Positions 497 through 63,236 of a stretch of DNA of 64,000 nt are shown here, piece after piece (positions within the stretch are counted from its first letter, which is position 1; each line of letters begins with the position of its first letter). The stretch covers positions 682,001 through 746,000 of the forward strand of contig NZ_JARVCO010000002.1 of NCBI RefSeq assembly GCF_034531395.1, read 5' to 3'. Under the pieces are notes generated by a model. That model saw nothing but the letters and a program-made list of their open reading frames with translations. It had not been told where the DNA came from and ran no database searches. Position numbers and translations under genes: made by a program. Origin of the DNA: Pontiella agarivorans. GTDB taxonomy: Bacteria > Verrucomicrobiota > Kiritimatiellia > Kiritimatiellales > Pontiellaceae.

Positions 497-520
497 TCCA
501 TTTCATCGGGTTCCGTGTGA

Positions 521-538
521 CCCCGCCTGACGGCGGGG
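521..538 (+). other. GC-rich hairpin in the leader of the PEP-CTERM gene
   Basis: CCCCGCC (521-527) pairs with GGCGGGG (532-538) around TGAC. It lies about 26 bases upstream of the start codon at 565, just before the purine-rich ribosome site, so it may be a second terminator hairpin for the upstream gene or an mRNA leader structure. Confidence 0.4.
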
Positions 539-564
539 GTGCGGTTTCAAAAAAAAGGAAAAAC

Positions 565-1260
565 ATGAATACAAAAATACTCACAGCAGGATTGGCAGTC
601 GCTGGACTGCTATTGAATGTTTCAGCCGATGTAGTCTGGAACGAAGACTTCGAAGGGGCTGCGCTTGGAGCAACCTCCGGCAATAATCAAACGTTGGCCG
701 GAACGTCGGTTCAGACGGCGAATACGGCTTCGAGTGTTGTGGTGGATTCCACAACCGATCCTGCCGCAGCTGCAGCCTTCACATTTGCATCCGGAAACTT
801 TATCCGGCTTTCTGCCAGCTCGAATGATTATGCTGCGGTGCGTTCCGCGCTCAATCCGATCAGTTTTGCGCAGGTTTCATCGGATGCCACCTATACGTTA
901 TCATTCGATATCTATATTCCGGTTACGCTCGATAAAGCTGTAGGTGATATTCAGCCGCGGTTCAAGCTGAACGGAGCGGGCGGAAGCGGCGCGACAGACG
1001 CCAGTCAGACGGTGGCGGATGCCGGTCAGTATCACATCGTTTATACCGGGCAGATTTCCGACTTCATCAACACGGATGTGAATGAAGCGCGTCCATTCAT
1101 CGGTATTGATCAGGACGGCGGAAAGCTGGTGCAGGAAAACTTCGATTATATGTATATGGATAACATTCAGTTGGAGGTAATTCCGGAACCGGCCACGCTT
1201 GGATTGGTCGCAGCTTTCGGCGGCGGCATTATTTTAATCCGCCGTCGTTTTATGATGTGA
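565..1260 (+). CDS. PEP-CTERM protein consisting of the shared 'EDFEG' module
   Basis: A 231-residue exported protein. The start at 565 is chosen because AAGGAA lies just upstream and the product then begins with a normal Sec leader (MNTKILTAGLAVAGLLL). The mature part starts DVVWNEDFEGAALGATSGNN and is one ~185-residue beta-sandwich-like module, with VGDIQPRFKLNGAGG and ARPFIGIDQDG as landmarks. It is the same module that forms the N-termini of the large BNR proteins at 8137, 55762 and 59733. The C-terminus is a textbook PEP-CTERM signal: V-I-PEP, a hydrophobic helix, then RRR. That implies recognition by an exosortase and delivery to the cell surface or matrix. No catalytic motif is seen; carbohydrate binding is a guess from its partners. 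Confidence 0.85.
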   Translation: MNTKILTAGLAVAGLLLNVSADVVWNEDFEGAALGATSGNNQTLAGTSVQTANTASSVVVDSTTDPAAAAAFTFASGNFIRLSASSNDYAAVRSALNPISFAQVSSDATYTLSFDIYIPVTLDKAVGDIQPRFKLNGAGGSGATDASQTVADAGQYHIVYTGQISDFINTDVNEARPFIGIDQDGGKLVQENFDYMYMDNIQLEVIPEPATLGLVAAFGGGIILIRRRFMM

Positions 1261-8136: not shown

Positions 8137-11100
8137 ATGAGGAGTTATTTTTATTGGGCTGTGTTGCTGACCTCGCTCACAGCGAGCGGTGCACAGGTAA
8201 TCTGGAGTGAGGATTTCGAGGGAGCGTCGCTGGGTGCAACCTCCGGAAATAATCAGACTTTGGCAGGAACTGTGGTTCAGACCGCCAATACGGCTTCCGG
8301 GATCATAGTGGATGCTTCAACTGATTCCGGGGCGGCCGCTTCGTTTACATATGCTTCGGGAAAGTTTATTCGTTTGTCGACCGGTGCAAATGCCTGGACA
8401 GCACTGCGGTCATCATCAGGCCCGATCTTTTTTACTCAGACTTCGCCGACCCAGACTTATACGCTGTCTTTCGATGTCTATATTCCTTCCACGCTTTCTA
8501 CGGCGGTTGGCGATATCCGGCCGAAATTTACCTTAAACGGTACGGCGGCGGCAGATCTGACCGACGCAAGTATGGCAGTGCGTACTGCCGGGCAGTATCA
8601 TATTGAATATTCCGGATTGATTTCGGATTTTCTGAATACGGATGTGAATGCGGCAAGACCGTTTATCGGTATCGATCAGGGCGGCACAGCACTCAGTGAT
8701 TATCTATATGTGGATAATATCTATTTTGAAATCGGAACTTCGGCAGCAACGCCGGAAACATCACCTATTGATCCGGCATGGTTTGCCGATCTCAAAAGCG
8801 GGCGTGTGGAGTCCAGCCCGTTAGTGCAGTGGCAGCATTTCGGTCCGGGAATGTCCGGTTATATCGATATGTTCTGGATTAATAACGGCGATCCGAATGC
8901 CATGTATGATTCGCTGGATATGGGCAACAGTCAGGTGACGCTTAATGGCGGTAAGTTTTGGCGGAGTATGCGCGATTCTGATGGCTGCGGTTATCATCCC
9001 GACTACTTCGTAGCGATGGATTTTTCGTTTACGGATCCTGATTTCGGTTTGGCCGTGCGGCGTAATGTGAAAACCAACCGGGGCGAGCTGTTCCAGAGTA
9101 CGGACCGCGGTGCATCCTGGACCTTTTTATGCGAGCCGATCCCCGGCAGTGATAAACGGCATAATGTAATTGCAGTTGATCCTTCCAACGATAACAACTG
9201 GTATATCGGCGCCGGTGGGGGTGCCTTCATTAAAGATGCGCATTACACGAAAAGCGGAATTACGAATACCTCGCCGTGGAAGACCTATATGTCTGAGGGG
9301 TTCATTATGTACTCGAAAGATCGCGGTACAAACTGGACTCAGGTCTCATCTCCTTTTCCGACAGATTCGAGTTTCAGCCGGATCATTGTCGACCCGCGCG
9401 ATTCCAATAAAGTGTATGCCTCCTGTCAGCATGGGGTGTATAGAAGTTCAGACGGAGGGCTGAGCTGGTCAAAAGTTCCGGGGAATGGTCTTCCTTACAA
9501 TCAGCCACGCTATATGGATTCGTATTTTGATCCGGAAGCCAACGGTGGAGCCGGGGAGTTTCTGCTCTATATTGTAGAAATCACGCACTATGATCCGGTC
9601 GGGAGCGAGATTGTGACATCGGGCGGTGTTTATCGCACGGCCGACGGAGGAGATTACTGGGAAAATTTAACGGGTGATCTGGCCATTGATTTTACACAGA
9701 TTTCCCGGTTTGGATGGGATTATCACAACCGGTTTTATCGGGCGGTGGCTTTCTGGATGGAAACAACCGCATCGGATATCAGCAATAATTATAATCTTCC
9801 GGCATCCACCTTCAGCCAGTTTCATCAGATTGCCGTGGACCCGACTCAGAAAGACCGGGTGTATCTGGTTCATAATTTCAAGCATGACTACGCTTTTCCT
9901 CCGGGAAATATCTGGATGACGGAAAACGGGGGAACCAACTGGTTTGCAGCTGCACGTGAGGGGCCGTACTGGATTAACGGTTTGGATGATGACTATTGGA
10001 ATTCCCGGGCGGTTCAGCCGTTGGGGATGAATACAACTATGGCACATGTTGACCGGGACCACCGATTATATGATGCCATTACGGTTGGTCCGCGTTTTAT
10101 AAAGGTGAATCAGCTGGGCCATGTCTATACGGCATTTGCTCAGCAGGTCATGCGCTCCACCGACAACGGTGCAACGTGGATTCAGGTGGATGATGACGAA
10201 ACGTCACCGGGAAGCGGGCACTGGGTCGGTCGGGGAAACAGCAACCTTCCGGGAGAATCGATCTGTTTGCAAACCGGGACACCGGGAACCTATCTTTGGG
10301 GCAGCGGTGAACATGGACTCTGGCGTAATACGCATGACGGAGATCTGGTTTATCCGGGAGCCATTGCGGTGAAACAGTTAACGGGGCAAAGCATTGATAA
10401 AGACGATCCGACCTCTATTGCAACGATTGCTGTGGATCCGAATGACACCAATAAAATTTACACGCTCCAGTTCCGGCAGGATAAAAGGAACCATCTGCGC
10501 CATTCATCCGATGGCGGTGAAACGTGGATGACTCTTTCCCAGCCGTTGCCGGATATCGATATTCGCTCCAGATCCCTGATGGTGGATCATCAAAATTCCG
10601 ATATCCTCTATTTTACAATACCGTACAGCATCTGGCAGCCGTATGGAGGAGCCGGTAAATACCGGGGAAACGGTTCCGCGGATATGGAGGTTTACGGGGT
10701 GTATAAATCAATAGACGGCGGGGTGACCTGGACAAATCCAAACAGCGGCCTGCCTTCCGGTTCCAGTGTCTGGAAACTGTTCATGGATCCGGTGGATTCC
10801 CGGATCATTTATGCCGCTTTGGCCTATACGCATACCGGAACGTCTGGCGGACTGTATAAAACTGACGATGGTGCGGCAAACTGGTTCCCCATGACCGTGC
10901 CGGCCGGGGTAACGTGTGTGAACGATGTGATGGTTCATAAAACTACCGGAGATCTCTATATCGCATGCGGCCGACGAGAAGGGGATGGCTCAACCGGAGG
11001 GGCCTATGTGAGCCGTGATGGCGGGGAAACATGGGTCCTTATTTTTGATTTTCCGAATGTCCGGGGTGTGAATGTCTGTGCTGCAAATGATCAGGTTATT

Positions 11101-11661
11101 GCTGTGATTGCAGGTGAAGATGATGATGTAAATGATTTAAATCCCGGGGCCTATGTGACGGTTGATGGAGGACATAACTGGCATAAGATCAACCGGCGTC
11201 ACGGCCAGCCGGAAAAAATACGGGAACTTCAGGTGGATCCCTACGATGAAACGATTCTCTGGTGTTGTCTGTCCGGAACCGGCTTCTGGAAAGCGGATAT
11301 CTCCGGACTGACGACCGGCGTGGCAAAACCCTTTTTCTGGGACTGGATGGAGGAGCATGGTCTGGCAGATCGAACAGGCAATGCAGATGGTGATGTGATG
11401 AGCAATATTGAGGAGTACATTGCGGATACAGATCCGAACAATATGCAGGAATACTTTGCTGGTGAACCGGTCGCCGGCGGTGTCGGTGTTCAATTCCGCT
11501 CCGTGCTCAGTCGAAACTACAGCGTGGAGAAAACGGATAATCTTACCGGAGACTGGTTCGTCTGGACCAATGGAGTGGCCGGCACGGGTTCGCTCGTCGA
11601 ACTGACCGATCCTGAAGGCACAAGCAATGTGTTCTATCGGGTAAAGGTTCAGATGAACTAG
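8137..11661 (+). CDS. Giant secreted BNR/Asp-box propeller protein with shared N- and C-terminal modules
   Basis: 1174 residues. The start at 8137 has AGGAGG eight bases upstream; an in-frame ATG at 8110 lacks a leader. Architecture: Sec leader; the 'EDFEG' module (VIWSEDFEGASLGATSGNN, to about residue 205); a linker; a catalytic-looking propeller beginning at WQHFGPGMSGYIDMFW; and a C-terminal module (WDWMEEHG, DGDVMSNIEEYIADTDP, ending VFYRVKVQMN). About eleven Asp-box motifs are seen, such as STDRGASW, SSDGGLSW, TENGGTNW, STDNGATW, SIDGGVTW and SRDGGETW, as in sialidases, Vps10 domains and GH74 enzymes. GSGHWVGRGNSNLPGE and GEHGLW are conserved with the gene at 59733, which is nearly colinear. 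The substrate is unknown; a GH74-like polysaccharide hydrolase is the best guess. Confidence 0.8.
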   Translation: MRSYFYWAVLLTSLTASGAQVIWSEDFEGASLGATSGNNQTLAGTVVQTANTASGIIVDASTDSGAAASFTYASGKFIRLSTGANAWTALRSSSGPIFFTQTSPTQTYTLSFDVYIPSTLSTAVGDIRPKFTLNGTAAADLTDASMAVRTAGQYHIEYSGLISDFLNTDVNAARPFIGIDQGGTALSDYLYVDNIYFEIGTSAATPETSPIDPAWFADLKSGRVESSPLVQWQHFGPGMSGYIDMFWINNGDPNAMYDSLDMGNSQVTLNGGKFWRSMRDSDGCGYHPDYFVAMDFSFTDPDFGLAVRRNVKTNRGELFQSTDRGASWTFLCEPIPGSDKRHNVIAVDPSNDNNWYIGAGGGAFIKDAHYTKSGITNTSPWKTYMSEGFIMYSKDRGTNWTQVSSPFPTDSSFSRIIVDPRDSNKVYASCQHGVYRSSDGGLSWSKVPGNGLPYNQPRYMDSYFDPEANGGAGEFLLYIVEITHYDPVGSEIVTSGGVYRTADGGDYWENLTGDLAIDFTQISRFGWDYHNRFYRAVAFWMETTASDISNNYNLPASTFSQFHQIAVDPTQKDRVYLVHNFKHDYAFPPGNIWMTENGGTNWFAAAREGPYWINGLDDDYWNSRAVQPLGMNTTMAHVDRDHRLYDAITVGPRFIKVNQLGHVYTAFAQQVMRSTDNGATWIQVDDDETSPGSGHWVGRGNSNLPGESICLQTGTPGTYLWGSGEHGLWRNTHDGDLVYPGAIAVKQLTGQSIDKDDPTSIATIAVDPNDTNKIYTLQFRQDKRNHLRHSSDGGETWMTLSQPLPDIDIRSRSLMVDHQNSDILYFTIPYSIWQPYGGAGKYRGNGSADMEVYGVYKSIDGGVTWTNPNSGLPSGSSVWKLFMDPVDSRIIYAALAYTHTGTSGGLYKTDDGAANWFPMTVPAGVTCVNDVMVHKTTGDLYIACGRREGDGSTGGAYVSRDGGETWVLIFDFPNVRGVNVCAANDQVIAVIAGEDDDVNDLNPGAYVTVDGGHNWHKINRRHGQPEKIRELQVDPYDETILWCCLSGTGFWKADISGLTTGVAKPFFWDWMEEHGLADRTGNADGDVMSNIEEYIADTDPNNMQEYFAGEPVAGGVGVQFRSVLSRNYSVEKTDNLTGDWFVWTNGVAGTGSLVELTDPEGTSNVFYRVKVQMN

Positions 11662-11668
11662 CCTTTTG

Positions 11669-11694
11669 CAGGGCAGATTAGATGTCCTGTTTTT
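11669..11694 (+). terminator. Intrinsic terminator after the BNR gene
   Basis: CAGGGCA (11669-11675) pairs with TGTCCTG (11683-11689; one G-T pair) around GATTAGA and is followed by TTTTT. It closes the block that starts at 2900. Confidence 0.8.
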
Positions 11695-11746
11695 CGGCTG
11701 ATAAGCGTTTGATTGGCCGTATATAAAGAACAATAAATGAAAGTGG

Positions 11747-13297
11747 ATGATGAAAACCGTTAAAATCATATCGTTGTTGGCTCTGGCCTGTATGGCTGCG
11801 GGCGCCGAGGTGGTGCTGCCGAATATTTTCAGTGATTATATGCTGCTGCAGCAGCAACAGAAAAATCCGGTCTGGGGCATGGCTGATCCGGGCGAGCGGG
11901 TTACCGTTGAATTTGCCGGGCAGAAGAAAACGGCTGTGGCGGATGAAGAAGGGCGCTGGAAGGTTGAACTCGACCCTTTGGAGGCCAGTTTTGAAGGCCG
12001 AAGCATGAAAATTTATTCATTCGGTAAGCTTCAATCAGAAATCTGCAACATTCTGGTTGGAGAGGTCTGGATGTGTTCCGGTCAATCGAACATGGCGTGG
12101 TCGATGAATGCGATCAACGATTATGATATGGAGGTTGCGACGGCGAACTATCCGAACATTCGTCTGCTGGCCGTTCCAAGGGTTGGAACGCAGGAGCCGC
12201 AGTTTAATATTGAGGCCGCCTGGACCGAATGTACGCCGGAAACCGTGAAGAATTTTTCGGCACCGGGATTCCTGTTCGGGCGGAAGCTGCATCATGCATT
12301 GAAGGTGCCGGTGGGGCTGATTTATAATGCCTGGGGCGGTTCTGATCTGGAAGCCTGGCTTCCAATTCATGTGCTTGAGGAAGCCGGACAGGATGAATAT
12401 CTGGCGGAATGGAATACCTATCTTTCGCGGTATTCTGATGAATATCTGGAAAAACAGAAAATTGAATACAAACAGTGGGTAGCAGACGGAAAGCCCGGGA
12501 AAAAACGGTTCGAACCGCGGGATGTGCGCATCGGACAGAAAAGACCTGCAAATATTTATAATGGGGTTCTTCATCCGACCATTGGATATGGGATTAAAGG
12601 GGTGATCTGGTGCCAGGGTGAAAGCAATATCGGACGCGCTTATGAATATCGCTCGCTCTTTCCTCTATTGATTACCACGTGGCGGGAATGGTGGGATAAT
12701 GATGATCTGCCGTTTTACTGGATTCAACTGGCGGACCATAATTATGAGAAGCCGGAACCCGGCGAAAGCTACTGGGCTGAACTGCGCGAGGCGCAGACCA
12801 TAACGCTGAAACTTCCGCATACCGGAGAGGCGGTGGTGATCGATCTGGGGGAAGCGCGGGATATTCATTATCGGGACAAGCAGACTGCGGCGGCCCGCTT
12901 GGTGCGCCATGCGTTGGGCAAAGATTATGGATTTAATATTGCGACCGAAAGTCCGCGTTTCCAATCCTTGGAAATTAAAGGAGATAAAGCGGTGGTAACG
13001 TTTGATCATGTGGCCACGCATCTGTACGCCTTTGATGTGCCCGAAGTGAAAGGGTTCGCTGTTGCAGGTGCGGATAAAAAGTTTTATTGGGCTGAGGCAA
13101 AGATTATCGGAAAAAATAAAGTGGAGGTTTGGTCGGACCAGGTTCCTGAACCGGTTGCGGTACGCTATGGCTGGGCGGATAATCCGGTGGTTAATCTTTA
13201 TGACCGGAACAGTCTGCCGGTTACGCCATTCCGTTCCGATGACTGGCCGGTGGGAACAATGGGTAAAAAGACGCTGTATCGTCTGATGCCTGAATAA
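11747..13297 (+). CDS. Secreted sialate O-acetylesterase-like (SASA) protein
   Basis: A 516-residue SGNH-type esterase. A Sec leader (to about residue 20, AAGA-EV) is followed by a small beta domain (residues 21-95) and the SASA domain. The nucleophile motif is CSGQSNMAW with S114; GVIWCQGESN is the central block; EARDIHYRDKQTAAARLV carries the D-x-x-H-type catalytic pair. Two consecutive ATGs (11747, 11750) follow a weak ribosome site. Members remove acetyl groups from sialic acid or from plant and algal polysaccharides; the latter fits here. The BNR gene 15 bases downstream is probably in the same transcript. Confidence 0.88.
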   Translation: MMKTVKIISLLALACMAAGAEVVLPNIFSDYMLLQQQQKNPVWGMADPGERVTVEFAGQKKTAVADEEGRWKVELDPLEASFEGRSMKIYSFGKLQSEICNILVGEVWMCSGQSNMAWSMNAINDYDMEVATANYPNIRLLAVPRVGTQEPQFNIEAAWTECTPETVKNFSAPGFLFGRKLHHALKVPVGLIYNAWGGSDLEAWLPIHVLEEAGQDEYLAEWNTYLSRYSDEYLEKQKIEYKQWVADGKPGKKRFEPRDVRIGQKRPANIYNGVLHPTIGYGIKGVIWCQGESNIGRAYEYRSLFPLLITTWREWWDNDDLPFYWIQLADHNYEKPEPGESYWAELREAQTITLKLPHTGEAVVIDLGEARDIHYRDKQTAAARLVRHALGKDYGFNIATESPRFQSLEIKGDKAVVTFDHVATHLYAFDVPEVKGFAVAGADKKFYWAEAKIIGKNKVEVWSDQVPEPVAVRYGWADNPVVNLYDRNSLPVTPFRSDDWPVGTMGKKTLYRLMPE

Positions 13298-13312
13298 AAT
13301 CGAGGTTTATGT

Positions 13313-15928
13313 ATGACGATCAAACCGTGGTTTCTAGTACTGCTTCCGCTGGTTGCCTACGCAACTCCGGATTCTGATTTTTTTGAGCGTATCCGGACGG
13401 AGCGGGTGGAATCCGATCCTTCCGTGGTCTGGAAAAATTTCGGACCCGGGATGTCGGGTTACTGTGAGAATTTCTGGTGTCATCCAACGGATACCAACGT
13501 CATGTTTATGGGTCCTGATATGCACGTCAGTTACGGGACGTGGGATGGCGGTAACTCATGGCATACGTTGAAGGATTCGGACGGTTTGGGGCTGGAGATG
13601 AAGCGGGTGCTGGACGTTGAGTTTTCCCGGCAGAATCCTGATTTCGGTATGGCGATTGATTGGAATGGATGGGTGTATGAAACCATCGATCGCGGTCGAA
13701 ACTGGACGAAAAGATCTGAACTCAGCCGTAGTTGGAAAGAGGTGGGTATTGACCCGAATGATCCGGAATCCTTTTCCAAAGGCTGGTATTATGAACAGAT
13801 GGGAACACGGCTGAGTGAGCTTGCGGTGGATCCTTCAAATGATAATATCTGGTACATTGGTGCCGGTGATTTCCGGAACATTAAAGCCAATCATAAATCG
13901 GCGGCCAATCTCCATGGCACTCGATTTGATTATGCTGATTATGGCTATATCTGCAAATCGACGGATCGCGGTAAAACGTGGCGGAAAATCCGAAACGGTT
14001 TGCCGGTGGATCTGGATGTTGCCCGTATTATTGTGCACCCGGAAAACAGTCAGCATATTATTATGGCTACGAGTCATGGAATAATGCTCAGCAGGGATGG
14101 AGGCCTGACCTGGACCAACAGGACCGATGGACTGCCGAATAATCTGCCGAAAGACCTGACCTCTTTTTATGATAAAGCTACCGGAACATTTGTGCTTTAT
14201 CTGGTTGAACAGACGGTTTATTTGCCGAAAGAGAACGGCATTGAATCGGTTGGCGGAGTTTTTAAAAGTACTGACGGCGGGGTCAGCTGGATCAATATCA
14301 GCGGCAATCTGTTTCTCGATTTGAATGCGGTAGATAGCCCGTGGGAGAATGACCGGTTTTATAAAACGGTGGCTCATTGGCTTGGACTATCCAAAGCGGA
14401 GGCGATGAAGCGGTTCAATGTGCTGCCGAAACGGGCATTGCCTACGTTTAACCGTATTGTGGTAAATCCGAATAAGGCGGATGAGATTTATTTGACCTAT
14501 AACAGGAAGCATGATCGGACATTCGGTCCCGGGGATGTCTGGCGTACGCTGGATGGCGGCCGTACGTGGAGTGTGGTTGCCCGGTATGGGGCTTATTGGA
14601 AGAGCGGGCGCGGGGCTGCATATTGGAAGTCCCGCAACAATCCCGTTGGAACCAATGTAACATTTGCGCACCTGCAATCCTATATGGATACGAATCCGGG
14701 ATATTCAGGGAACCGTATGATGAGCATTAATGCTGCCGGTGAATTATTCATCGGGCTCGATCAACAGACGCTTAAGTCGACCGATAAAGGGGAATCCTGG
14801 AAACAGGTGGATGATTTTGAAACGGCACCGGGAAGTGAAAAATGGATCGGGCGCGGCGGGAGTAATCTGCCGGGCCGTTTCATGCTGCTGGAAACCGGGA
14901 TTCCGGAGCGGAAGCTGTTGTGCAGCGGTGAACATGGATTATGGCAGACCACGAAGCTGGAAAACTGGCCGGATAAATCTGCGGTGGCGGTTGAGCAGAT
15001 TGAAGGTCAGATTCATCTGGATGGTGCACATTCCATTTCCACCGTTGCTGTGCATCCCAACAATCCCGATATGATCTATTTTCTAAGTTGGCGGCAGGAG
15101 CACCGGGGTAAGCTGCGCCGTTCTACCGATGGCGGGAAAACATGGAAGAATATTTCGACGATCTTTGAGGCGGATAACGGCATCTGGGAAAATGTGGCTT
15201 CGCAGAATTCATTGATTATTGATCCACAGAATCCGGACAATATGTATTTCTGTTCGACATATCAGCGTATTGCTGAAATTCATAACGGTCCGGGAGTTGA
15301 GCTGACTGAAGGCGGCTATGGTTTTTATCGATCGTTTGATGGCGGTTATACCTGGGCGTTGAGTAATACCGGATTGCCTGAGGGTGCAAGCGTACGACGA
15401 ATTGCCATGCACCCGGACAACCCGGCGGTTTTCTATGCCGCGCTTAATCATGACCATGGTGGGCTTTATGTTTCTCATGACCGGGGAAGTCATTGGGAGC
15501 CGCTACCTGTTCCTGCTGTAATCCGGGCGGTGAATCATGTGTTTATTGATCGCAATACGAAGCATCTGTTTATTGCTGCGGGCCGGAATAACGGAAGTTA
15601 TGAAGAGGGCGGCGTATGGCGCAGTGTGGACGATGGAAAAAGCTGGGAGCAGATTTTCAAGGCTCCGTTTGTCTGGCAGGTGGAAACGTCGCCGGTTAAT
15701 CCGGATCGGATGGTGATCAGTGTGGCCGGTCAGATTGTGCGTCGGTCACACGAGTTTATGAATCCGGGAATCTACCTCTCAAACGATGCGGGAAAATGTT
15801 GGAAAAAAATCAATCGGGGGCTTGGTCAGCCCGATAAAATTGTGGATGTGAAACCGGATCCTTACGATGAATCTGTACTCTGGTGTGCATCGTGGGGCTG
15901 CGGCTGGTTTAAGGCGGAAATTAAATAA
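13313..15928 (+). CDS. Secreted BNR/Asp-box propeller protein (propeller only)
   Basis: 871 residues: a Sec leader, then directly the propeller (SDFFERIRTERVESDPSVVW, KNFGPGMSGYCENFW). It matches the propeller of 8137, 55762 and 59733 but lacks both the N-terminal 'EDFEG' module and the C-terminal EY-x-x-G-x-DP module, ending with the last blade (WCASWGCGWFKAEIK). About twelve Asp-boxes are visible (TWDGGNSW, STDRGKTW, STDGGVSW, STDKGESW, STDGGKTW, SVDDGKSW). GSEKWIGRGGSNLPGR and GEHGLWQT repeat the family signature. It is therefore the minimal version of the family and defines the functional core. The stop overlaps the next start by one base (TAATG), which shows translational coupling to the beta-helix gene. 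Confidence 0.82.
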   Translation: MTIKPWFLVLLPLVAYATPDSDFFERIRTERVESDPSVVWKNFGPGMSGYCENFWCHPTDTNVMFMGPDMHVSYGTWDGGNSWHTLKDSDGLGLEMKRVLDVEFSRQNPDFGMAIDWNGWVYETIDRGRNWTKRSELSRSWKEVGIDPNDPESFSKGWYYEQMGTRLSELAVDPSNDNIWYIGAGDFRNIKANHKSAANLHGTRFDYADYGYICKSTDRGKTWRKIRNGLPVDLDVARIIVHPENSQHIIMATSHGIMLSRDGGLTWTNRTDGLPNNLPKDLTSFYDKATGTFVLYLVEQTVYLPKENGIESVGGVFKSTDGGVSWINISGNLFLDLNAVDSPWENDRFYKTVAHWLGLSKAEAMKRFNVLPKRALPTFNRIVVNPNKADEIYLTYNRKHDRTFGPGDVWRTLDGGRTWSVVARYGAYWKSGRGAAYWKSRNNPVGTNVTFAHLQSYMDTNPGYSGNRMMSINAAGELFIGLDQQTLKSTDKGESWKQVDDFETAPGSEKWIGRGGSNLPGRFMLLETGIPERKLLCSGEHGLWQTTKLENWPDKSAVAVEQIEGQIHLDGAHSISTVAVHPNNPDMIYFLSWRQEHRGKLRRSTDGGKTWKNISTIFEADNGIWENVASQNSLIIDPQNPDNMYFCSTYQRIAEIHNGPGVELTEGGYGFYRSFDGGYTWALSNTGLPEGASVRRIAMHPDNPAVFYAALNHDHGGLYVSHDRGSHWEPLPVPAVIRAVNHVFIDRNTKHLFIAAGRNNGSYEEGGVWRSVDDGKSWEQIFKAPFVWQVETSPVNPDRMVISVAGQIVRRSHEFMNPGIYLSNDAGKCWKKINRGLGQPDKIVDVKPDPYDESVLWCASWGCGWFKAEIK

Positions 15929-20055: not shown

Positions 20056-20170
20056 GTTTTCAGATGATGATCCCGCCGTAAAGGATACATCCTTTAGGAT
20101 ACTAGAATTGCGGTTTGACTGAATCTAGTTTGTTCCTTTGCTTGGATCAAATAAGTACAGGACGGACGAG
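20056..20170. promoter_or_regulatory. Divergent control region between kinase and Fn3-propeller gene
   Basis: A 115-base intergenic region serves two divergent genes. AAAGGAT (20080-20086) and ATCCTTT (20089-20095) form a tight inverted repeat, and GGATAC occurs twice, at 20083 and 20097, fourteen bases apart. ACTAGA (20101-20106) and TCTAGT (20124-20129) form a second inverted repeat. Such paired repeats suit a NarL-type regulator, possibly the neighbouring one. AGGA at 20159-20162 is the ribosome site for ATG 20171. Confidence 0.45.
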
Positions 20171-22549
20171 ATGAAAAATAAACTAATTTTAGGGCTGTTG
20201 TGCGGAGCTGCGCTGGGCGGGGCTTCGCGAGCGAATGTAACTCTGGTCGGCAGTGATATTCCGAACAGGAGCGTGATGGATGGCGATTTTGAGTCCTTTC
20301 GCGCAAACTGGCGGTGGCCGGAGCCGTCGTCCGACTGGGTCGTTGAAATCGTAAAAGGCGGTGGAAGGGCCGGTTTTGCAGAGCGGTCTATGATGATAAA
20401 CGGTCCTCTGGAAGCCACGTTTGAAAGTCGGGTGCTGGATCATACCGCGGTCAAATCGCTGAATAAAGAGGATGTGCTGCACTGGCGTTTTTCATCGAAT
20501 ACGGAATATCCCTGTGACGGCCGGGTTACGTTGGCGTTGGTTTTCGGAGATGATGAACGGGTGGTTGCGTCGCGGGTGAAGGTGCCGAACGGACCGGATG
20601 AACCGAAGACCTATGAAGGGTTTTATACGCTGACTGCGGCGGATGCCCGGCAGGGAATGCCCCGGCTGAAATTCACACTGGAATCGACACATGGTATTAT
20701 TGTGTATGTTCACTGGGTGGATCTGAAACTCCTGAAATCCGAACCTGTTCAATTGGCGGCCAATGCGGTTGCAGAAGGGATTGAACTGTCGTGGAACCGC
20801 CCGGTTTTTTCTTCCGGTGTTACGATATACCGAAGCGAAAATGAACGGGCCGGATTTACGAAAGTCGCTGAAGATATTGAAGGTACGCACTGGACCGATT
20901 CCTCGATTATCAACGGCAGGGAATATTTTTATGTGCTGAAACGGGGAGATGCCGTTGCGGAGATTTCCAGTGTTCGGAAAATAGATTCAGTTCCCCCCGC
21001 CGCCCCCTTAGATCTTAAGGCTTTTGGTGAAGACTGGGTGGTGAACCTGTATTGGAAAACGAACGATCGTGATATTGCTTTTTACCGGGTTTATCGTGAT
21101 ACCGGCGATGGGCTGCAGTGTATTGCGCAGCATGTCGGAGGGGAACATTTTGAAGATATGCTGCCGGAGAAGGGCGCTGAAAACCGTTATGCAGTGAAAG
21201 CGGTGGATCACAGTGGTAATGAAGGTCCGTTCTCAGGAATTGTTTCGGCACATGTTAAAGCTGTCCGGGGCGCTTCGTTCAGTGATCTGATTCTGAAAAT
21301 GCCCATTCATAAACAGTTGCGTAATGATGTTTGGGGTGCGGATAATGTGCGTCCGCGCGATCCGGATAACGGAATAGAGGATTCGTTCTGGAGTTACTGG
21401 GGCGGCAAGGCGATTGAAGAAAACGGGAAATACCATCTGAATGTGGTGCGCTGGCAGGAAGGACATCGTAAAGGGCATTGGGCTTGGCCGGAATCTACTG
21501 TGGCCTATGCGGTTTCCGACCATCCGGCAGGGCCGTATGAGGTGGTTCGGGATCGGTCGTATGACTATAAAAAAGGACTGGGTCATAATGCCAATATCAT
21601 TCCGCTGAATGACGGCACCTATGCGATGTATGCACTGGTTGACTGGAAGCCGACGATCTTTACGTCGGTATCGATGGCCGGTCCCTGGAAACTGCTGGGG
21701 GAAATGAAGGTGAATGTTCCTGCAAATTATAAGAACGCCTATCGGCTGCAACGGAATCTTTCCGGCGTTCAGTGTGATGACGGAAGCTTTCTCTTTGTCA
21801 CTAAGGCGGGTGCGATGATTCGCAGTACGCAGGGCATTCTGGGTCCTTATGATGTGGTAAGCGGGATTACGCAGGAGAATGAGACGATTCCTCAGAAATA
21901 TCGGCATTCAAATTATGAAGATCCGACCATGTGGTATGACGGGGTGCAGTATCATATGATGATTAATGCCTTCCTGGATTACCGTGCTGTCTATCTGCGC
22001 TCGCCGGACGGGATTCACTGGAAGTATGAAGACGGCCTGGCTTATACGCCGACCTGTACGGTCTATGAAGATGGAACCCGCACATTCTGGTATAAAGTGG
22101 AACGGCCGAATGTGATTCAGGATGAATATGGCCGGGCCACTCACCTCCAATTGGCGGCAATCGATGTGCCGAAAGCGGATGATTACGGAAACGACCGCCA
22201 TAGCTCAAAGCATCTGATTATTCCGCTGACGGTTTATAAACGTTTGACGATGCTGAATAAAGAGCCGGTAAACGCAGAAACAAAAGAGGTTCGTGTGCTG
22301 ATGCATTCTGAAGAAGGCTTCGATGCCAGGACCGACCTCGATTTTAAATCGCTTCGCTTCGGAGCTTCGGAAGCGGTTAATTTCGGGGGCGGAGCAAAAT
22401 TGAAACGAACGCTGAAACATAAAGACGGGCTGATACTGATCTTCGGGGAAGGTAATGAAATCAGCGATAAAAACTTTGTTGGAAAACTGATTGGTCAAAC
22501 CAAAGAAAGCAAGCTGGTCGTCGGCTATTCGAAGCTGGTTTCGGAATAG
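20171..22549 (+). CDS. Secreted Fn3-containing propeller glycoside hydrolase (GH43/GH117-like)
   Basis: 792 residues from the ATG at 20171 (an upstream TTG at 20138 lacks a ribosome site). Order: Sec leader; a jelly-roll-like domain (about 20-190); two fibronectin-III-like domains (about 195-285 and 288-375, with [20 protein letters not shown] and [17 protein letters not shown]); then a five-bladed propeller (about 385-700) with [60 protein letters not shown] and [17 protein letters not shown]. The fold resembles that of 5053 but the domain set is larger. It probably acts on galactan- or fucan-type glycans. The downstream DUF5703 gene follows after 11 bases. Confidence 0.75.
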
Positions 22550-31278: not shown

Positions 31279-31300
31279 ATTTTTAATGACGGAGAAAACA

Positions 31301-55647: not shown

Positions 55648-55777
55648 AGGCGTACGGCTTGACCGTGCGCCTTTTTTATAGACCATTGGATAGGTTGCTG
55701 ATGTTAACGTTTCCATTTAGATTGTTTCTAAATTAGGGGAATATAAAAAAGAGGGTGATTTATGCGACTGGACATCA
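55648..55777 (+). terminator. Strong intrinsic terminator after the last sulfatase
   Basis: AGGCGTACGG (55648-55657) pairs with CCGTGCGCCT (55663-55672; one wobble) around CTTGA, followed by six Ts (to 55677). The hairpin itself ends at 55677. Confidence 0.7.
55685..55715 (+). promoter_or_regulatory. ATTGGATAGG box and cre-like operator upstream of a BNR gene
   Basis: ATTGGATAGG (55685-55694) is followed seven bases later by TGTTAACGTTTCCA (55702-55715), which fits the LacI/CcpA consensus TGxxAACGTTxxCA. The site is about 47 bases upstream of the start at 55762. Confidence 0.55.
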
Positions 55778-58700
55778 ACACAGCACTGGTGTTGTCTGCC
55801 TGTATTTCCATTCAGGCGGCTGTGATTTGGGAAGAGGATTTTGAGGCGGTAGCGGTTGGCACTGTATCCGGTAATAATCAGACGCTTGCGGGATCCGTCG
55901 TTCAGACCGCCAATGGGGCCTCCGGTACCGTGGTGAATGCGGCAACGGATCCGGTTGCGGCCGTAGCTTTTTCGCTGGCTTCGGGAAACTTTTTACGTCT
56001 TTCCTGTGATGATAATGCTTTTGCCGCAATACGTCCTTCATTGAATCCGATTGAATTTGATCCGGTATCAAACACCAATACGTACACCCTGTCATTTGAT
56101 CTCTATCTGCCCTCGGCAGTCGGCATTCCTGTGGGGGATATCCAGCCCCGTTTCAAGTTGAACGGTGCCGGGGGAAACGGCGCTGTCGACGATACGTTTG
56201 CGACCAATACGGCAGGACAGTATCATGTGGTGTATACCGGACTGATTTCTGATTTTATTGCCACGGATGTGGATGAGGCGCGTCCCTTTATTGGAATTGA
56301 TCAGGATGGAACGGTGCTCAATGATTTTCTGTATATTGACAATATCCGTTTTGTTCTAGGCGCTGAGACGCCGCTTTCCAGCGATGCCTGGTTTGAAATG
56401 CTGCGAACGCAGCGGGTGGAGTCTGATCCTTCGATTGTGTGGCGCCAGTTTGGTCCGGGGATGTCGGGGAACAATTATCGCATTTACTGGCATCCGACCG
56501 ATCCGGATGTCGTTTTTCTTGGTCCGAATATGGGCAATGGCTTCCGTTCCGAAGACCGTGGTACGACGTATGAGGGCATTCTTGATTATGATGGGAAAGG
56601 GCATGCGTTTGATGAACGGGGACCGAGTGAAATCAATTCCCCCGATTTTTCGCGGCAGCATCCGGATCTGGGTTTCTGTTCCCGCGAAGCGGAATCAAAA
56701 CTGTATAAAACGACGGATCGGGGAAAAACATGGACCCGTATGACGTCAACCGAACCGGTTTGGGACGGTAAGCGGCTGAACACAATTGCCGTTGCGCCGT
56801 CGAACGATCAGATCTGGTATATTGGATCGGGCGATATCAATGACCGGAATAAATATTTTTTCACGGCGGCACAGCCCCACGGCTACGGCAGTGCATCCGG
56901 GCATGAGGCTAAAATATGGAAAACATCGGATCAGGGCGTAAACTGGAGCGATATCACTCCGGCGGGAATCAATCCGAATGCCTGTATAGTCCGGATTATT
57001 GTTCATCCTGAAGATGCGGATACGGTCTGGGCGGCGACCACGTACGGCCTGTATAAAACCACGGATGGCGGTGTGAGCTGGACGGCGAAAACCGGCACAG
57101 GACTCGATAACGATATCATCCGTTCATTTGATATGCATTATGATGCGTCCTCCGGCGATGTCACCTTATATGCCGTTGATCAGGTGATCTGGGCGGATGC
57201 CGGAAATACAGTAACCAATGCCGGCGGCGGGATTTTCCAGAGTCTGGACGAAGGAGAATCGTGGCAGAATATCAACGGAAATCTCGGAGTGGATATTTCG
57301 GTACTGAAATCCGACTATCAGCTTAAAAAATCGTATTTCAGCGCGCTTGAAAAATGGTTTGGCATTTCTGATGCGGAATCGGTTTATACTGTTTATCCAA
57401 CCAATCTGATGAACAATTTCAGTATGGTTCGGGTTGATCCGAACGATGCCGGGAAAATCTTTATTCTCAACGATTATAAACACTATGGCGGTTCAACGAC
57501 GTTTCGCGGCGGAATGGTCTGGCGGACGGATGACGGCGGCGCACATTGGTATGCCACGCTTCGTAATGGAACCGCCTGGGCGGGAATTCATAAAAGTTAC
57601 TGGGAAGGGCGGGGTACTCCGACCGCACACAATATGTTCCTGCGCGGCCAGAAAAAGTGGGAGCAGCGCGATTCCTATGAGCGCAAGGCCGGTTCGGCCA
57701 TTGAGTTCAATGCCGACGGCTCCATGCTGATGTTTCAGTGGGCAAAAACGCTGGTGGTGTCGCTGGACGGTGGGGATACCTGGGAGGAAATCGATGAAAT
57801 CGAAGTGACCCCGGGTTCGGAAATCTGGGTGGCGGCGGAGAACAGCAATTTGCCGGGGCACGGGCTTAAACAGGATCCGCGTTTCCCGAACACCGTTTTT
57901 CTGCCCAGTGGTGAAAATGATTTCTGGGTTTTGGAACCGGGCGGAGATTCCGTGCGTTCCGGATATCAGGCCGCGCGGCGTGTGGAAATGGGCAGTTCCG
58001 AATATTCCTGTTCGGATGTTGCGATTCACCCAACTGATACCAATATTATTTACACGCTGCAGTTTCGGCAGGCATCGGCCGGGGATCTGCTCAGATCCAC
58101 CGATGGCGGAAAGACGTTTGCGGAGCACGGTGTTGCTTTGGAATGGCCTCCCGGAGAATCGGAAAATACAAGCATCGATCAGCTCTGCCTGACGATACAT
58201 CCGGATGATCCCGATTATATGTTTTTCTGCGTGCCGGATGATGCGGCGGTGCATGGTTATGTCTGGGACCCGCAGATCAGTTTGACGACCGGCGTGCGGC
58301 GAAGTACGGATGGCGGTCTAAACTGGGAATGGGCCAATAACGGACTGCCGTCGGAGGATGTGGTTGGTCTGCGGCTGGATCCGAATAACAGTTCGAATCT
58401 CTATGCCTGCGTATACGGAAACAATGGAGGCCTTTATATTTCCACCGATTATGCGGCATCGTGGTCAAAATATACTAAACTGCCGGAACAGATTTACAGT
58501 GTATCGGATATCCATTTTTCCAATGACGGGAAAATCTATGTTTCCTGCGGGAAACACAGCGATTATGACGTGGATGAAGGCGGGGTCTGGATGAGTGCTG
58601 ATGGCGGTGACTCCTGGACTCAGATTTTTAAAACGCATTGGGCGCGGATGACAAAAACCGCCGTTTATGACCCCGATGTGATTCTGGTGCAGATGAACAG

Positions 58701-59580
58701 CAAGGGAGCATCCGATATTCAGAATCCGGGAACCTATCTTTCTAAAGACGGAGGTTTGAGCTGGATTAAAATCAATACCGGCAATCCGCAGTCGGACCGC
58801 GTGAATGATATCGCCATCGATCAGGTGGTTCGCGACCGCTATTATGTTTCAACTCAGGGATGCGGTTGGCTGCGCGGTGATCTGGTGGACACAAATAATG
58901 CGGCACCGGTTTTTGTCCGGACGCCGATCGTTCATTCCAATGCGGTCCCGGAGGTATTGTATTCCGATTCGCTGAACGGGGAAGCTTCGGATCCGAACGG
59001 GGATGCGATTGATTATTCATTAACGCTTGGTCCGGACTGGGTCAGTGTGGCGGCGGACGGTGCGCTCAATGTTTTCCCGCCCGCCGGTGCAGTGGGCCGA
59101 TATCTCTGCCAGATTCAGGCGGATGACGCTGCAGGCATGAGTTCGCGTGAAACCCTGTATGTGACGGTCAGCACAAATGCATCGGCTTATTTTGCATCCT
59201 GGTTGCGGGACTATCCAGGCATTGGAATTCAGGACGGTACAGTCGACGACCCGGACCTCGACGGACTGGATAATCTGCATGAATATGCTTTCGGCGGAAA
59301 TCCAGCGGAAGCTGATGTCCCTGCGGGGATCGTTCCAACCTTTGGAACGGGATCTTCCGGCCTTGAATATGTTTACCGGCGAAGAAAAGACGCCGAAGTC
59401 CGCGGACTGGTCTATACGTTGCAAACGACAACCAACCTGATGTCCGGAAGCTGGACGAATTCGGGATATACGGTCGGAGGAGTCGGCGATCTTACCGATT
59501 ATTTCGATGCGGTTACCAACTCGGTTTCCGCGGCCGACGCCGCACGTTTTCTGCGTCTTGAACTTAAATGGTCCGAATAA
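55762..59580 (+). CDS. Giant secreted BNR/Asp-box protein with Ig-like and C-terminal modules
   Basis: 1272 residues. Order: Sec leader; 'EDFEG' module (VIWEEDFEAVAVGTVSGNN, to about residue 200); propeller beginning RVESDPSIVWRQFGPGMSG; a cadherin/He_PIG-like domain (NAAPVFVRTPIVHSNAVPE to the ETLYVTVS strand, about 1050-1140); and the C-terminal module (WLRDYPGIGIQDGTVDDPD, LDNLHEYAFGGNP, ending FLRLELKWSE). About twelve Asp-boxes are seen (TTDRGKTW, TTDGGVSW, SLDGGDTW, STDGGKTF, SADGGDSW, SKDGGLSW). The family block is altered here (GSEIWVAAENSNLPGH). It is the longest gene in the window, preceded by a cre-like site. Function is unknown; a GH74-like or binding role is possible. Confidence 0.8.
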   Translation: MRLDINTALVLSACISIQAAVIWEEDFEAVAVGTVSGNNQTLAGSVVQTANGASGTVVNAATDPVAAVAFSLASGNFLRLSCDDNAFAAIRPSLNPIEFDPVSNTNTYTLSFDLYLPSAVGIPVGDIQPRFKLNGAGGNGAVDDTFATNTAGQYHVVYTGLISDFIATDVDEARPFIGIDQDGTVLNDFLYIDNIRFVLGAETPLSSDAWFEMLRTQRVESDPSIVWRQFGPGMSGNNYRIYWHPTDPDVVFLGPNMGNGFRSEDRGTTYEGILDYDGKGHAFDERGPSEINSPDFSRQHPDLGFCSREAESKLYKTTDRGKTWTRMTSTEPVWDGKRLNTIAVAPSNDQIWYIGSGDINDRNKYFFTAAQPHGYGSASGHEAKIWKTSDQGVNWSDITPAGINPNACIVRIIVHPEDADTVWAATTYGLYKTTDGGVSWTAKTGTGLDNDIIRSFDMHYDASSGDVTLYAVDQVIWADAGNTVTNAGGGIFQSLDEGESWQNINGNLGVDISVLKSDYQLKKSYFSALEKWFGISDAESVYTVYPTNLMNNFSMVRVDPNDAGKIFILNDYKHYGGSTTFRGGMVWRTDDGGAHWYATLRNGTAWAGIHKSYWEGRGTPTAHNMFLRGQKKWEQRDSYERKAGSAIEFNADGSMLMFQWAKTLVVSLDGGDTWEEIDEIEVTPGSEIWVAAENSNLPGHGLKQDPRFPNTVFLPSGENDFWVLEPGGDSVRSGYQAARRVEMGSSEYSCSDVAIHPTDTNIIYTLQFRQASAGDLLRSTDGGKTFAEHGVALEWPPGESENTSIDQLCLTIHPDDPDYMFFCVPDDAAVHGYVWDPQISLTTGVRRSTDGGLNWEWANNGLPSEDVVGLRLDPNNSSNLYACVYGNNGGLYISTDYAASWSKYTKLPEQIYSVSDIHFSNDGKIYVSCGKHSDYDVDEGGVWMSADGGDSWTQIFKTHWARMTKTAVYDPDVILVQMNSKGASDIQNPGTYLSKDGGLSWIKINTGNPQSDRVNDIAIDQVVRDRYYVSTQGCGWLRGDLVDTNNAAPVFVRTPIVHSNAVPEVLYSDSLNGEASDPNGDAIDYSLTLGPDWVSVAADGALNVFPPAGAVGRYLCQIQADDAAGMSSRETLYVTVSTNASAYFASWLRDYPGIGIQDGTVDDPDLDGLDNLHEYAFGGNPAEADVPAGIVPTFGTGSSGLEYVYRRRKDAEVRGLVYTLQTTTNLMSGSWTNSGYTVGGVGDLTDYFDAVTNSVSAADAARFLRLELKWSE

Positions 59581-59611
59581 ATTCAGGTTTTTTGAAAATA
59601 GAACCTATTCT

Positions 59612-59635: not shown

Positions 59636-59732
59636 TCATGTACTAAATCTAACAAACCATATATACTGGTGTTCACTGGATAGCGGCGCATGCATATGCC
59701 GTTTGTGATGTCGGAAAATAAAGAGGGTTTAT

Positions 59733-62700
59733 ATGAAGACGGTGAGTTTGGCATTTTTATCGGTCATGATCTGTGTTGACGTTTTGGCACAGGTAATCTG
59801 GAGCGAAGACTTTGAGGGAGCAGCTGTGGGCGAAACCTCCGGAAATAATCAAACGCTGGCGGGTACGGTTGTTCAGACGGCTAACACGGGGAGCGGCGTG
59901 ATTGTGGACGCAGCAACGGATGCTTCGGCAGCGACGGCTTTTACGCTGGCATCCGGCCGATTTCTTCGGCTTTCAACCGGTGATAATGCATTTTCCGCTT
60001 TGCGTTCTTCTTCAAAACTTACATTTGACCGGCTTTCACCCACCAATACGTATGTTTTCTCGTTTGATATTTATATTCCGGTGGAGCTGGGTGTGGCGGT
60101 TGGAGACATTCAGCCGCGTTTCAAGCTCAGCGATGTTGGCGGAAACGGGCCGACGGATTCGAGTTTGGCCACGCTGAGCGCGGGACAGCATCATATTGAG
60201 TATACCGGCACAATTGATGATTTTATCGGAACGGATGTAAATGAGGCTTATCCGTTTATCGGGATTGATCAGAATTCGACCGTTTTGAACAACTATCTTT
60301 ATATCGACAATATTTATTTTGAACTGGCACCGGAAGGGGTCATGCCGTTGCCATCGCTGAATACCGCCTGGTTCGATACCTTGAAGAGTGAGGTTGTCTT
60401 ATCCTCCCCGCTGGTAAAATGGCAGCATTTCGGGCCGGGCATGTCCGGCTATATCGATAAATTCTGGATCAATAACGGAGATCCGGACTGTATGTATGAT
60501 CAGCTCGATATGGGCAATGGTCACGTTACACTGAATCGCGGTGAATACTGGCATACGTATAAGGACACTGATGGCAACGGTCTTCCCGGCGGAATCACCG
60601 GAATTGAATTTTCCTATCAGAATCCGGATTTCGGGCTGATGATGGCGAAAGAGGGAATTTATTCCACAACCAATCGCGGGCTGAACTGGGATTTTGTTCT
60701 GGATATTGAAAGCAATAATTCGCAGATGCACAGTGTGCTTACGGTGGATCCGAACAATGATCAGGTCTGGTACATCGGTGCGGGCCAGCATTGGATGATT
60801 AAATCCACCCATTGGACTAAAGACGGACTTCATTATTCCAACGATGGAAATTATTCCGCCGGATATATTCGTAAATCCATCGATGGCGGATTGACCTGGT
60901 CGAAAATTAATTTTCCTAACGGAGATGAAGATTTCAGTAAAATTGTTGTGGACCCTAGGAACTCCGACGTGGTTTTCGCCGCCTGCCAGTATGGATTGTT
61001 CAAAAGCACGGACGGCGGTGCGAACTGGACTCTGCTCAGCGGGGGCGGACTGACCGCAAACCCGCCGCGCGATCTCGGATTCTATTACGATGGAGCTGAT
61101 GAATTTCTGCTCTATTATCTCGCCGTTACAGGATATGAAATCTCCGGATCTGAGATTCAGACCACGGGGGGGATTTACCGCAGCGCGGACGGCGGGGCCA
61201 GCTGGGAAAATCTGACCGGGGATCTGGGGATTGATCTGTCACAGATCAGCAGTTGGGGGTATCGCGATAAATTCAGGCGGGCGGTGCTGTGGTGGAATAA
61301 ACTGACAATGTCGTACAATGATTTTTATGCGGCTTATGATGAACCCACGAACACCTTCAGTCAGTTTACCCGGATTGCCGTTGACCCGACCAATAAGGAC
61401 CGGATTTATCTGTCCCATAATTACAAGCACGACTATGCGTTTCCGCCGGGAAATATCTGGATGACGGAAAACGGCGGGACCAACTGGTTCGCCGCGGCCC
61501 GCGAAGGGCAGTACTGGGTGAACGGCGTGGATTCAGATTACTGGAACGCCCGGGCCATTCAACCGATGGGAGCCAATGTGCAGATGGCCCATGTTCACCG
61601 GGAACACTATGAGCATGACAATACCCAGTCCGGCCCGCGCTTTGTTTTTTGTAATCAGCTTGGTGAAGTCTACACCTGTTTTGCCCAGCAGATGATGCGC
61701 TCGACCGATCATGGTGAAACCTGGAAGCAGATTGATGACGATGAAACCGTGCCGGGTTCAGGCCATTGGGTGGGCCGGGGAAACAGCAATCTGCCGGGCG
61801 AAACCTTCTGTCTGGAAACCGCAACGCCGGGCACCTATCTCTGGGGTAGTGGCGAGCATGGCCTTTGGCGGAATACCGACGACGGCGATCTGGTTTATCC
61901 GGGAGCAATTGCGGTGGAGCAGCTTACCGGGCAGAGTATTTCCGATAACAGTGCTCTTTCCATTTCAACCATCGCATCGGATCCGCAGAACCGGAATCAT
62001 GTATATATGATTCCTTTCCGGCAGGATTATAAAGGACAACTGCTGTTTTCCGATAACGGCGGCGATACCTGGAATTCAGTTTCCGCTCTGATCAGTTTTC
62101 CGGGCGGAAATGACGTGCTTAATTTCCGGTCATTAATGATCGATCATCAGAATTCAGATCAGATCTATTTCTGTATTCCTTTTTCTGAATGGGCCCGCTG
62201 GTCGGGTAATTTTGTGAATAACGGGCGCCAGTTCGGTGACGGGTCTGATGCATTCCCGCATGGTATTTATAAATCCACTGACGGCGGCTTGAGTTTCAGC
62301 ACAATCACGAACGGTCTTCCGGCCGGTTGCAGCGTCTATCGCATGGCGATGGATCCGGCGGATTCCCAGACGATTTTTGCCGCTTTGAACGAAACGCATA
62401 ACGGACTGGCGGGCGGGCTGTATAAAACCACGAATGGCGGAGCAAACTGGCAGTCGGTGGACATTCCTCCCGGCATTCGGAGTGTGAACAATGTGAAATT
62501 CCATTCAAACGGAAATATCTATATCGCCTGTGGAGATTATAACGGAACGACCGGCGGCGGATACGTGAGTCAGGATGGCGGGGCAACGTGGCATCTGTTG
62601 TTTGATATGCCGTATCTGCGATATTTTGAAGCATCGGAAGCGGATCCCGATGTGGTGGTGGCCTGCGTTCATAAAAACACCTTGGTGGGACAGCGTAATC

Positions 62701-63236
62701 CCGGAGGATACGTTTCTGTGAATGGCGGGGCAAACTGGTTTAAAATCAACAACCGTCATGGACAGCCGGATGGTATCCGTAAAATTCAGCCGGATCCGCA
62801 TGATCCGGATATTCTGTGGATGTGTCTGCATGGTACCGGTTTCTTCCGGGCCGACATCTCCGGCCTGCGCACCGAAACGGCCCCGGAACCGTTATTCTGG
62901 GACTGGATGAAAGAACAGGATCAGAAAAGTATGTTTGCAGATTTTGATGCAGATAGTTTTGACAGTCGGGAGGAATACATCATCGGCTCTGATCCAGCGG
63001 ACACCACATCGGCTTTTACCATTGCTTTATCTTCAGGCATTGGAGCACAAAATGGAAGTGAGGTGCTTTTTGAAACCACCGAAAACCGGTTGTATGACAT
63101 TGATGTTTCCGAAGACCTTTTATCGGGCTGGGATGTGTGGAAAGAAAATATTCCAGGGACAGGAAATACCGTGATCATTGAAGACCCAGAAGTGGTGACA
63201 AACCGGTTCTATCGTGTGCGCGTAAAATTGGATTAA
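59733..63236 (+). CDS. Giant secreted BNR/Asp-box protein, near-colinear paralogue of the 8137 gene
   Basis: 1167 residues. Sec leader; 'EDFEG' module (VIWSEDFEGAAVGETSGNN); propeller from WQHFGPGMSGYIDKFW; C-terminal module (WDWMKEQDQKSMFADFDADS, SREEYIIGSDPADTT, ending FYRVRVKLD). About eleven Asp-box motifs (SIDGGLTW, STDGGANW, SADGGASW, TENGGTNW, STDHGETW, SQDGGATW). Whole stretches such as GNIWMTENGGTNWFAAAREG and GSGHWVGRGNSNLPGE are identical or almost so in 8137, 50 kb away, so one is a dispersed duplicate. AAAGAGGGTTTAT precedes the ATG. Likely substrate is the same as for 8137. Confidence 0.82.
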   Translation: MKTVSLAFLSVMICVDVLAQVIWSEDFEGAAVGETSGNNQTLAGTVVQTANTGSGVIVDAATDASAATAFTLASGRFLRLSTGDNAFSALRSSSKLTFDRLSPTNTYVFSFDIYIPVELGVAVGDIQPRFKLSDVGGNGPTDSSLATLSAGQHHIEYTGTIDDFIGTDVNEAYPFIGIDQNSTVLNNYLYIDNIYFELAPEGVMPLPSLNTAWFDTLKSEVVLSSPLVKWQHFGPGMSGYIDKFWINNGDPDCMYDQLDMGNGHVTLNRGEYWHTYKDTDGNGLPGGITGIEFSYQNPDFGLMMAKEGIYSTTNRGLNWDFVLDIESNNSQMHSVLTVDPNNDQVWYIGAGQHWMIKSTHWTKDGLHYSNDGNYSAGYIRKSIDGGLTWSKINFPNGDEDFSKIVVDPRNSDVVFAACQYGLFKSTDGGANWTLLSGGGLTANPPRDLGFYYDGADEFLLYYLAVTGYEISGSEIQTTGGIYRSADGGASWENLTGDLGIDLSQISSWGYRDKFRRAVLWWNKLTMSYNDFYAAYDEPTNTFSQFTRIAVDPTNKDRIYLSHNYKHDYAFPPGNIWMTENGGTNWFAAAREGQYWVNGVDSDYWNARAIQPMGANVQMAHVHREHYEHDNTQSGPRFVFCNQLGEVYTCFAQQMMRSTDHGETWKQIDDDETVPGSGHWVGRGNSNLPGETFCLETATPGTYLWGSGEHGLWRNTDDGDLVYPGAIAVEQLTGQSISDNSALSISTIASDPQNRNHVYMIPFRQDYKGQLLFSDNGGDTWNSVSALISFPGGNDVLNFRSLMIDHQNSDQIYFCIPFSEWARWSGNFVNNGRQFGDGSDAFPHGIYKSTDGGLSFSTITNGLPAGCSVYRMAMDPADSQTIFAALNETHNGLAGGLYKTTNGGANWQSVDIPPGIRSVNNVKFHSNGNIYIACGDYNGTTGGGYVSQDGGATWHLLFDMPYLRYFEASEADPDVVVACVHKNTLVGQRNPGGYVSVNGGANWFKINNRHGQPDGIRKIQPDPHDPDILWMCLHGTGFFRADISGLRTETAPEPLFWDWMKEQDQKSMFADFDADSFDSREEYIIGSDPADTTSAFTIALSSGIGAQNGSEVLFETTENRLYDIDVSEDLLSGWDVWKENIPGTGNTVIIEDPEVVTNRFYRVRVKLD

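Follow-up and report, generated by a model that had tools for sequence, protein, structure and literature searches.

A GH74-like family of Asp-box propeller proteins in a sulfatase-rich locus of Pontiella agarivorans

Described Asp-box propellers and the Pontiella locus

The glycoside hydrolases of family GH74 (structures 6p2m, 6p2k, 2cn3 and 1sqj) consist of two tandem seven-bladed propellers with Asp-boxes, and two Asp residues act as catalytic base and acid. GH74 proper acts on xyloglucan (PMC8245568), and the family has been reported as the most frequent glycoside hydrolase family in marine Flavobacteriaceae, which was interpreted as xyloglucan degradation (PMC7440613). Asp-box blades also form the Vps10/sortilin receptors, where one ten-bladed propeller is followed by a 10CC module; GH33 sialidases have a single six-bladed propeller. 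When Asp-box structures were surveyed in 2009, no n-bladed structure was known to carry n Asp-boxes (PMC2716378). Two further systems act on sulfated red-algal galactans: the GH150 lambda-carrageenases, large secreted enzymes of related marine bacteria for which a tandem-propeller organisation has been suggested (PMC4144425), and the iota-carrageenan sulfatase CgsA, which joins two propellers to an amidohydrolase module (PMC4144425).

P. agarivorans strain NLcol2 grows on agar and iota-carrageenan, and on neither fucoidan nor L-fucose (PMC10880615). The window analysed here, a stretch of 64,000 nucleotides of the NLcol2 genome, contains four intact open reading frames that we designate by their starts (8137, 13313, 55762 and 59733; Table 1). 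For the first of these, 8137 is preferred to the start of the 8110 open reading frame because the signal peptide begins there. A first-pass annotation had described the four as an undescribed family of modular Asp-box proteins, occupying about 13 kb and matching no named hydrolase family. Much of this description stands: the four are paralogues with a common core of about 840 residues (36-42% identity to 13313) and a total coding length of about 13.4 kb. The 11-12 Asp-boxes claimed were recovered with the strict pattern [ST]x[DN]xGxx[WFY] as 11, 12, 11 and 12 boxes in 8137, 13313, 55762 and 59733, against a mean of 0.15-0.35 and a maximum of 3 in shuffled sequences. The SNLPG block was found in all four, as was the FGPGMSG of the proposed opening xFGPGMSGY, the final Y being kept in three and replaced by N in 55762. 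The flanks are likewise as described: 13313 lacks them, 8137 and 59733 each carry a module N-terminal to the core and a tail C-terminal to it, and 55762 has an additional Ig-like domain, which Pfam matches below threshold (Big_9, E = 0.008). The count of four is correct for the window, but not for the genome, which has six such cores (the others at C8:99445 and C10:819011). An Rfam search of the window gave no match.

The propeller genes form two pairs (8137-15928 and 55762-63236) about 40 kb apart, flanking sulfatase genes. Neighbouring propeller genes are seen in relatives as well, for example at loci L035, L037, L043 and L044.

Table 1. Positions in the window of the propeller genes, their parts and a related stand-alone module
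Feature	Position	Strand	Description
13313, minimal member	13313..15928	+	871 aa: signal peptide and two-propeller core; 12 Asp-boxes
13313, first propeller	13418..14827 (about residues 36-505; limits approximate)	+	AlphaFold2 model: 7 blades, an Asp-box in each
13313, second propeller	14828..15925 (about residues 506-871; limits approximate)	+	AlphaFold2 model: 7 blades
13313, codon D69	13517..13519	+	Aligned with GH74 catalytic D35 of 1SQJ
13313, codon E540	14930..14932	+	By blade order, putative equivalent of D465, the second catalytic Asp of GH74; anchored alignment; invariant in 95/95 rows
8137, member	8137..11661	+	N-terminal CBM4/22-like module ~8191-8742, core ~8776-11301, C-terminal tail
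8137, acid positions	D270 at 8917-8919; E734 at 10309-10311	+	
55762, Asn-clade member	55762..59580	+	N-terminal module, core ~56386-58884, Ig-like domain ~58897-59166, C-terminal module
55762, acid positions	N256 at 56527-56529; E718 at 57913-57915	+	
59733, member	59733..63236	+	N-terminal module, core ~60366-62858, C-terminal tail
59733, acid positions	D259 at 60507-60509; E708 at 61854-61856	+	
Stand-alone N-terminal module, PEP-CTERM-like tail	517..1260	+	Model is a CBM4/22-like beta-sandwich

Predicted fold and relationship to GH74

The AlphaFold2 model of 13313 (mean pLDDT 92.2, pTM 0.89) consists of two tandem seven-bladed propellers, as counted from strands and Asp-boxes. Searched against the PDB with Foldseek, its best 25 matches are all GH74 xyloglucanases, covering most of the protein (6p2m, E 2.5e-29, TMt 0.73). 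With VIA-align, GH74 chain 6p2k superposes at Z 29.1 over 649 residues, the identity to GH74 being in the remote range (16-18%); single propellers that are unrelated score Z 26-27, but their aligned length is only some 300 residues. Sequence comparison gives the same result provided that a profile is used: a single-sequence phmmer search of the PDB with 13313 recovered only HCF136 (E 0.007), but a profile of 67 members reached E 2.6e-26 against GH74 chains and about 3e-9 against sortilin, with weaker matches to HCF136/Ycf48 and GH33. The family also aligned to GH74 proteins from plasmid records with E 1.3e-44 in hhalign; L108, which leads that set, is clearly GH74 when compared with the PDB, and the candidates left out of its alignment lacked the motif in the pattern used (L112-L114) or were too short (L107). 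The earlier statement that the proteins match no named hydrolase family therefore has to be withdrawn, both profile and predicted fold leading to GH74, and the term undescribed holds at the biochemical level (our search of the open literature found no paper characterising the propeller family) but not in the sense of a family without a named relative.

The likeness to GH74 thus comprises the two tandem propellers and sequence homology across both, and there are also differences. Each of the seven blades N1-N7 of the first propeller of 13313 carries an Asp-box, and these are kept in 94-95 of the 95 rows of our alignment (which counts 13313 twice, and so has 94 distinct rows); this is not so in GH74, and the six GH74 sequences compared have six to nine Asp-boxes per whole protein. 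The genomic context is algal and rich in sulfatases, in place of the xyloglucan loci of GH74. The NCBIfam model NF045728 (F510_1955 family glycosylhydrolase) detects the Asp-box repeats, but at 99.2, 134.4, 113.6 and 114.3 bits all four proteins fall below its 175-bit cut-off, and its 246 positions are far fewer than the length of the core.

Pfam would give these proteins another name, since Sortilin-Vps10 is matched above the curated cut-off in all four (E 1.3e-35 for 13313), and taken at face value this would make them ten-bladed receptors of the sortilin type. The profile, however, is 446 positions long and the best stretches cover only about 112-136 of them, sortilin structures superpose poorly on the model (TM 0.18-0.23, rmsd about 18), and two times seven blades contradict a single propeller of ten. 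We rejected a Vps10 receptor on blade number and TM-score, and regard the chance that the Pfam name is right as close to negligible. A GH33 sialidase was rejected on architecture, GH33 chains matching short stretches only, at E 8e-6 or weaker, and CgsA was set aside as the window proteins have no amidohydrolase module. GH150, compared by its published descriptions, differs: a PQQ-like domain is reported at the N terminus (PMC11202985), and the model has three domains and two lobes (PMC12549532). By predicted fold and by homology, then, the family is GH74-like, without the second catalytic Asp and, in one clade, also without the first, and its members are probably GH74-like enzymes rather than a new kind of machine.

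Candidate catalytic acids and the Asn clade

In profile alignment D69 of 13313 falls on D35 of 1SQJ, the first catalytic Asp of GH74, and the corresponding residue is Asp in 8137, 13313 and 59733 and Asn in 55762. The second catalytic Asp of GH74 is that of the motif GIGDISG (D465 of 1SQJ; 2EBS carries the D465N mutant there) and is absent from the family. We infer that its counterpart and the partner acid is E540 (in SGEHGLW). Both residues belong to the blade that opens the second propeller, and the Glu, present in 95 of 95 rows, would represent a conservative change. The first six blades come in the same order in the family and in GH74 according to hhalign. Because unanchored alignments (whole- and half-length hhalign) slip the E540 segment onto the preceding GH74 blade, this pairing rests on blade order and topology; in an anchored alignment E540 does fall on the Asp of GH74, though with a low probability (54% local, 1% global). 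Also invariant in the 95 rows are D500, W438, N448, R594, Q595, N817 and K832. The conserved acidic pair that had been suggested as worth looking for is present in a modified form, with Asp at position 69, replaced by Asn in one clade, and the invariant E540.

Of the 95 rows, 79 have Asp at position 69 and 16 have Asn (78 and 16 of the 94 distinct ones). When the columns surrounding the two acids were left out of the tree, the Asn rows (55762 among them) made up one side of a single branch (support 100). This clade has further fixed changes at Y50N, Q484K, H541N and S693D, and such coordinated changes suggest a changed function rather than decay. An Asn can serve as a carboxylate-activated base, as described for GH95 (PMC8245568), and 55762, with its Asn, may be a protein that binds but does not hydrolyse, or an enzyme whose machinery is altered. 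A clean split between Asp and Asn at a catalytic position, on one branch, makes the question of mechanism directly testable by assay.

The Asn clade also bears on whether the family is catalytic at all. The propellers could form a glycan-binding scaffold that holds a polysaccharide and presents it to other enzymes; this would account for the loss of the first Asp in a sixth or so of the distinct rows, has a parallel in Vps10 receptors, Asp-box propellers that need not be enzymes (PMC2716378), and would suit the CBM-like modules on several members. Yet E540 is invariant even within the Asn clade, the fixed changes of that clade point to altered function and not to loss, and all remaining rows have Asp at the first position. 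We thus consider a scaffold role improbable for the family; it is most plausible for the Asn clade.

The reading we favour, to which we assign a probability of about 0.55, is that the four are secreted GH74-like hydrolases that act on sulfated galactans of red algae, probably by an inverting mechanism, and that three of them carry CBM4/22-like N-terminal modules. The proteins, which carry secretion signals, would by analogy with GH74 hold the substrate in the cleft between the propellers, where D69 and E540 (numbering of 13313), acids contributed by the first blades of the first and second propellers respectively, would cleave the glycosidic bond, probably with inversion. The substrate would most likely be a sulfated red-algal galactan of the agaran or porphyran type, which the sulfatases of the locus and its other hydrolases would help to degrade, and in three of the four the N-terminal modules would help in binding. 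The strongest points of this reading are fold and homology, the weakest the substrate and the second acid.

Distribution, gene neighbourhood and probable substrate

A search of the contig collection (genome_contigs) with the family identified 75 loci, mainly in marine Bacteroidota (Zobellia, Lutibacter, Wenyingzhuangia, Flammeovirga, Maribacter, Aquimarina and Labilibaculum), the remainder being from Pontiellaceae, Planctomycetota, Shewanella, an alteromonad, Epulonipiscium and a few metagenome-assembled genomes. Copy number can be high: two Wenyingzhuangia genomes have six strong matches each, and one Zobellia species (other than Z. galactanivorans) has at least four family members. In the class to which the window belongs, only three of 116 sampled genomes gave a strong match, all three from one genus. 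A plasmid search with 13313 returned one full-length relative, in Persicobacter, and no Pseudoalteromonas was among the matches listed. The family is real, patchily distributed and found in sulfatase-rich algal loci, with enzymatic activity putative. Some Bacteroidota members have an N-terminal extension of about 175 residues and T9SS-like C-terminal tails. In Epulonipiscium viviparus, taxonomically far from the other hosts, two divergent members are adjacent (L098:3349-9420).

A tree of the 94 distinct cores places the window members in three old clades, one with 13313, one with 8137 and 59733, and one with 55762. While 8137 and 59733 group with Pontiellaceae and one Pirellulaceae, 13313 is found among rows from Bacteroidota, Planctomycetota and Proteobacteria, and this placement suggests that its lineage has been subject to horizontal transfer.

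Besides ten sulfatases, read from the open reading frames, the window encodes a GH50 beta-agarase-like protein, a GH29, a GH2-like and a GH127-like protein. One sulfatase cluster recurs in 41 of the 75 loci and a second, which includes relatives of the window's 31100 at up to 69% identity, in 17. Raw counts, uncorrected for a background rate, are 14 loci with GH29, eight with a GH16 related to porphyranase B and seven with GH117, the nearest solved relatives of the GH117 neighbour carrying no name but conserved hypothetical protein; a GH16 or GH117 marker lies within 6 kb in only 14 of the 75 loci. Immediately upstream of the family gene are a GH16 gene in Wenyingzhuangia (L044 and L046) and a protein with porphyranase domains (GH86-type) in Echinicola (L036). 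The sulfatases and the agar- and porphyran-type neighbours make sulfated seaweed galactans the probable substrate, and the neighbourhood counts together with growth on agar and iota-carrageenan but not fucoidan favour those of red algae. Close relatives of the sulfatase at 31100-33121 lie beside a propeller gene in several Bacteroidota loci, as if travelling together. Elsewhere in the window 20138-22549 and 39536-41500 have no Pfam match and 22561-25002 matches DUF5703 only; relatives of 20138 (about 47% identity) lie near propeller genes in Zobellia.

Some of the same observations could indicate a GH74-like hydrolase for another polymer, be it xyloglucan, a sulfated polysaccharide with fucose or another algal glycan: genes of the GH29 fucosidase type occur in the window as well as in the loci counted above, many hosts are general algal degraders, and GH74 proper cuts xyloglucan (PMC8245568), not galactan. 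The family GH29 also includes alpha-L-galactosidases, however, and its presence is for that reason compatible with agarans too. Fucoidan is further weakened by the growth data, the strain using neither fucoidan nor L-fucose, and the immediate neighbours in L036, L044 and L046 are of porphyranase types. We judge another polymer rather unlikely.

If family members do cut sulfated galactans, as in our preferred reading, a gap in agaran or carrageenan pathways would be filled. Z. galactanivorans has no GH150 gene yet uses lambda-carrageenan, and a glycoside hydrolase family still to be identified has been postulated (PMC6262041), for which the propeller family is one candidate and no more. The family may also be one source of the GH74 calls in Flavobacteriaceae. 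A more far-reaching view, which we hold to be doubtful, is that these proteins constitute a new glycoside hydrolase family, of one fold group with GH74, on sulfated red-algal galactans; the Asn clade with 55762 would then be active, with a nearby carboxylate activating the Asn that replaces the first Asp, as in GH95, or with an acid specific to the clade, such as D693, making up for the loss, and the lambda-carrageenase family postulated for Z. galactanivorans could be included.

The N-terminal module of 8137, 55762 and 59733 also occurs alone (at 517-1260) and in several other proteins of the genome. Its model (pLDDT 84, built with ten sequences) is a beta-sandwich; the top two hits to it in the PDB are CBM4 and CBM22 (E 1.9e-6 and 3.7e-5; TM about 0.5), and the cyanobacterial Hpi-type cyclases, which have the same sandwich, score about equally. 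The model suggests that the module is likely to bind sugar. At least eight further full or partial copies are present in the genome, several of them in large proteins, and the tail occurs alone in about 15 more.
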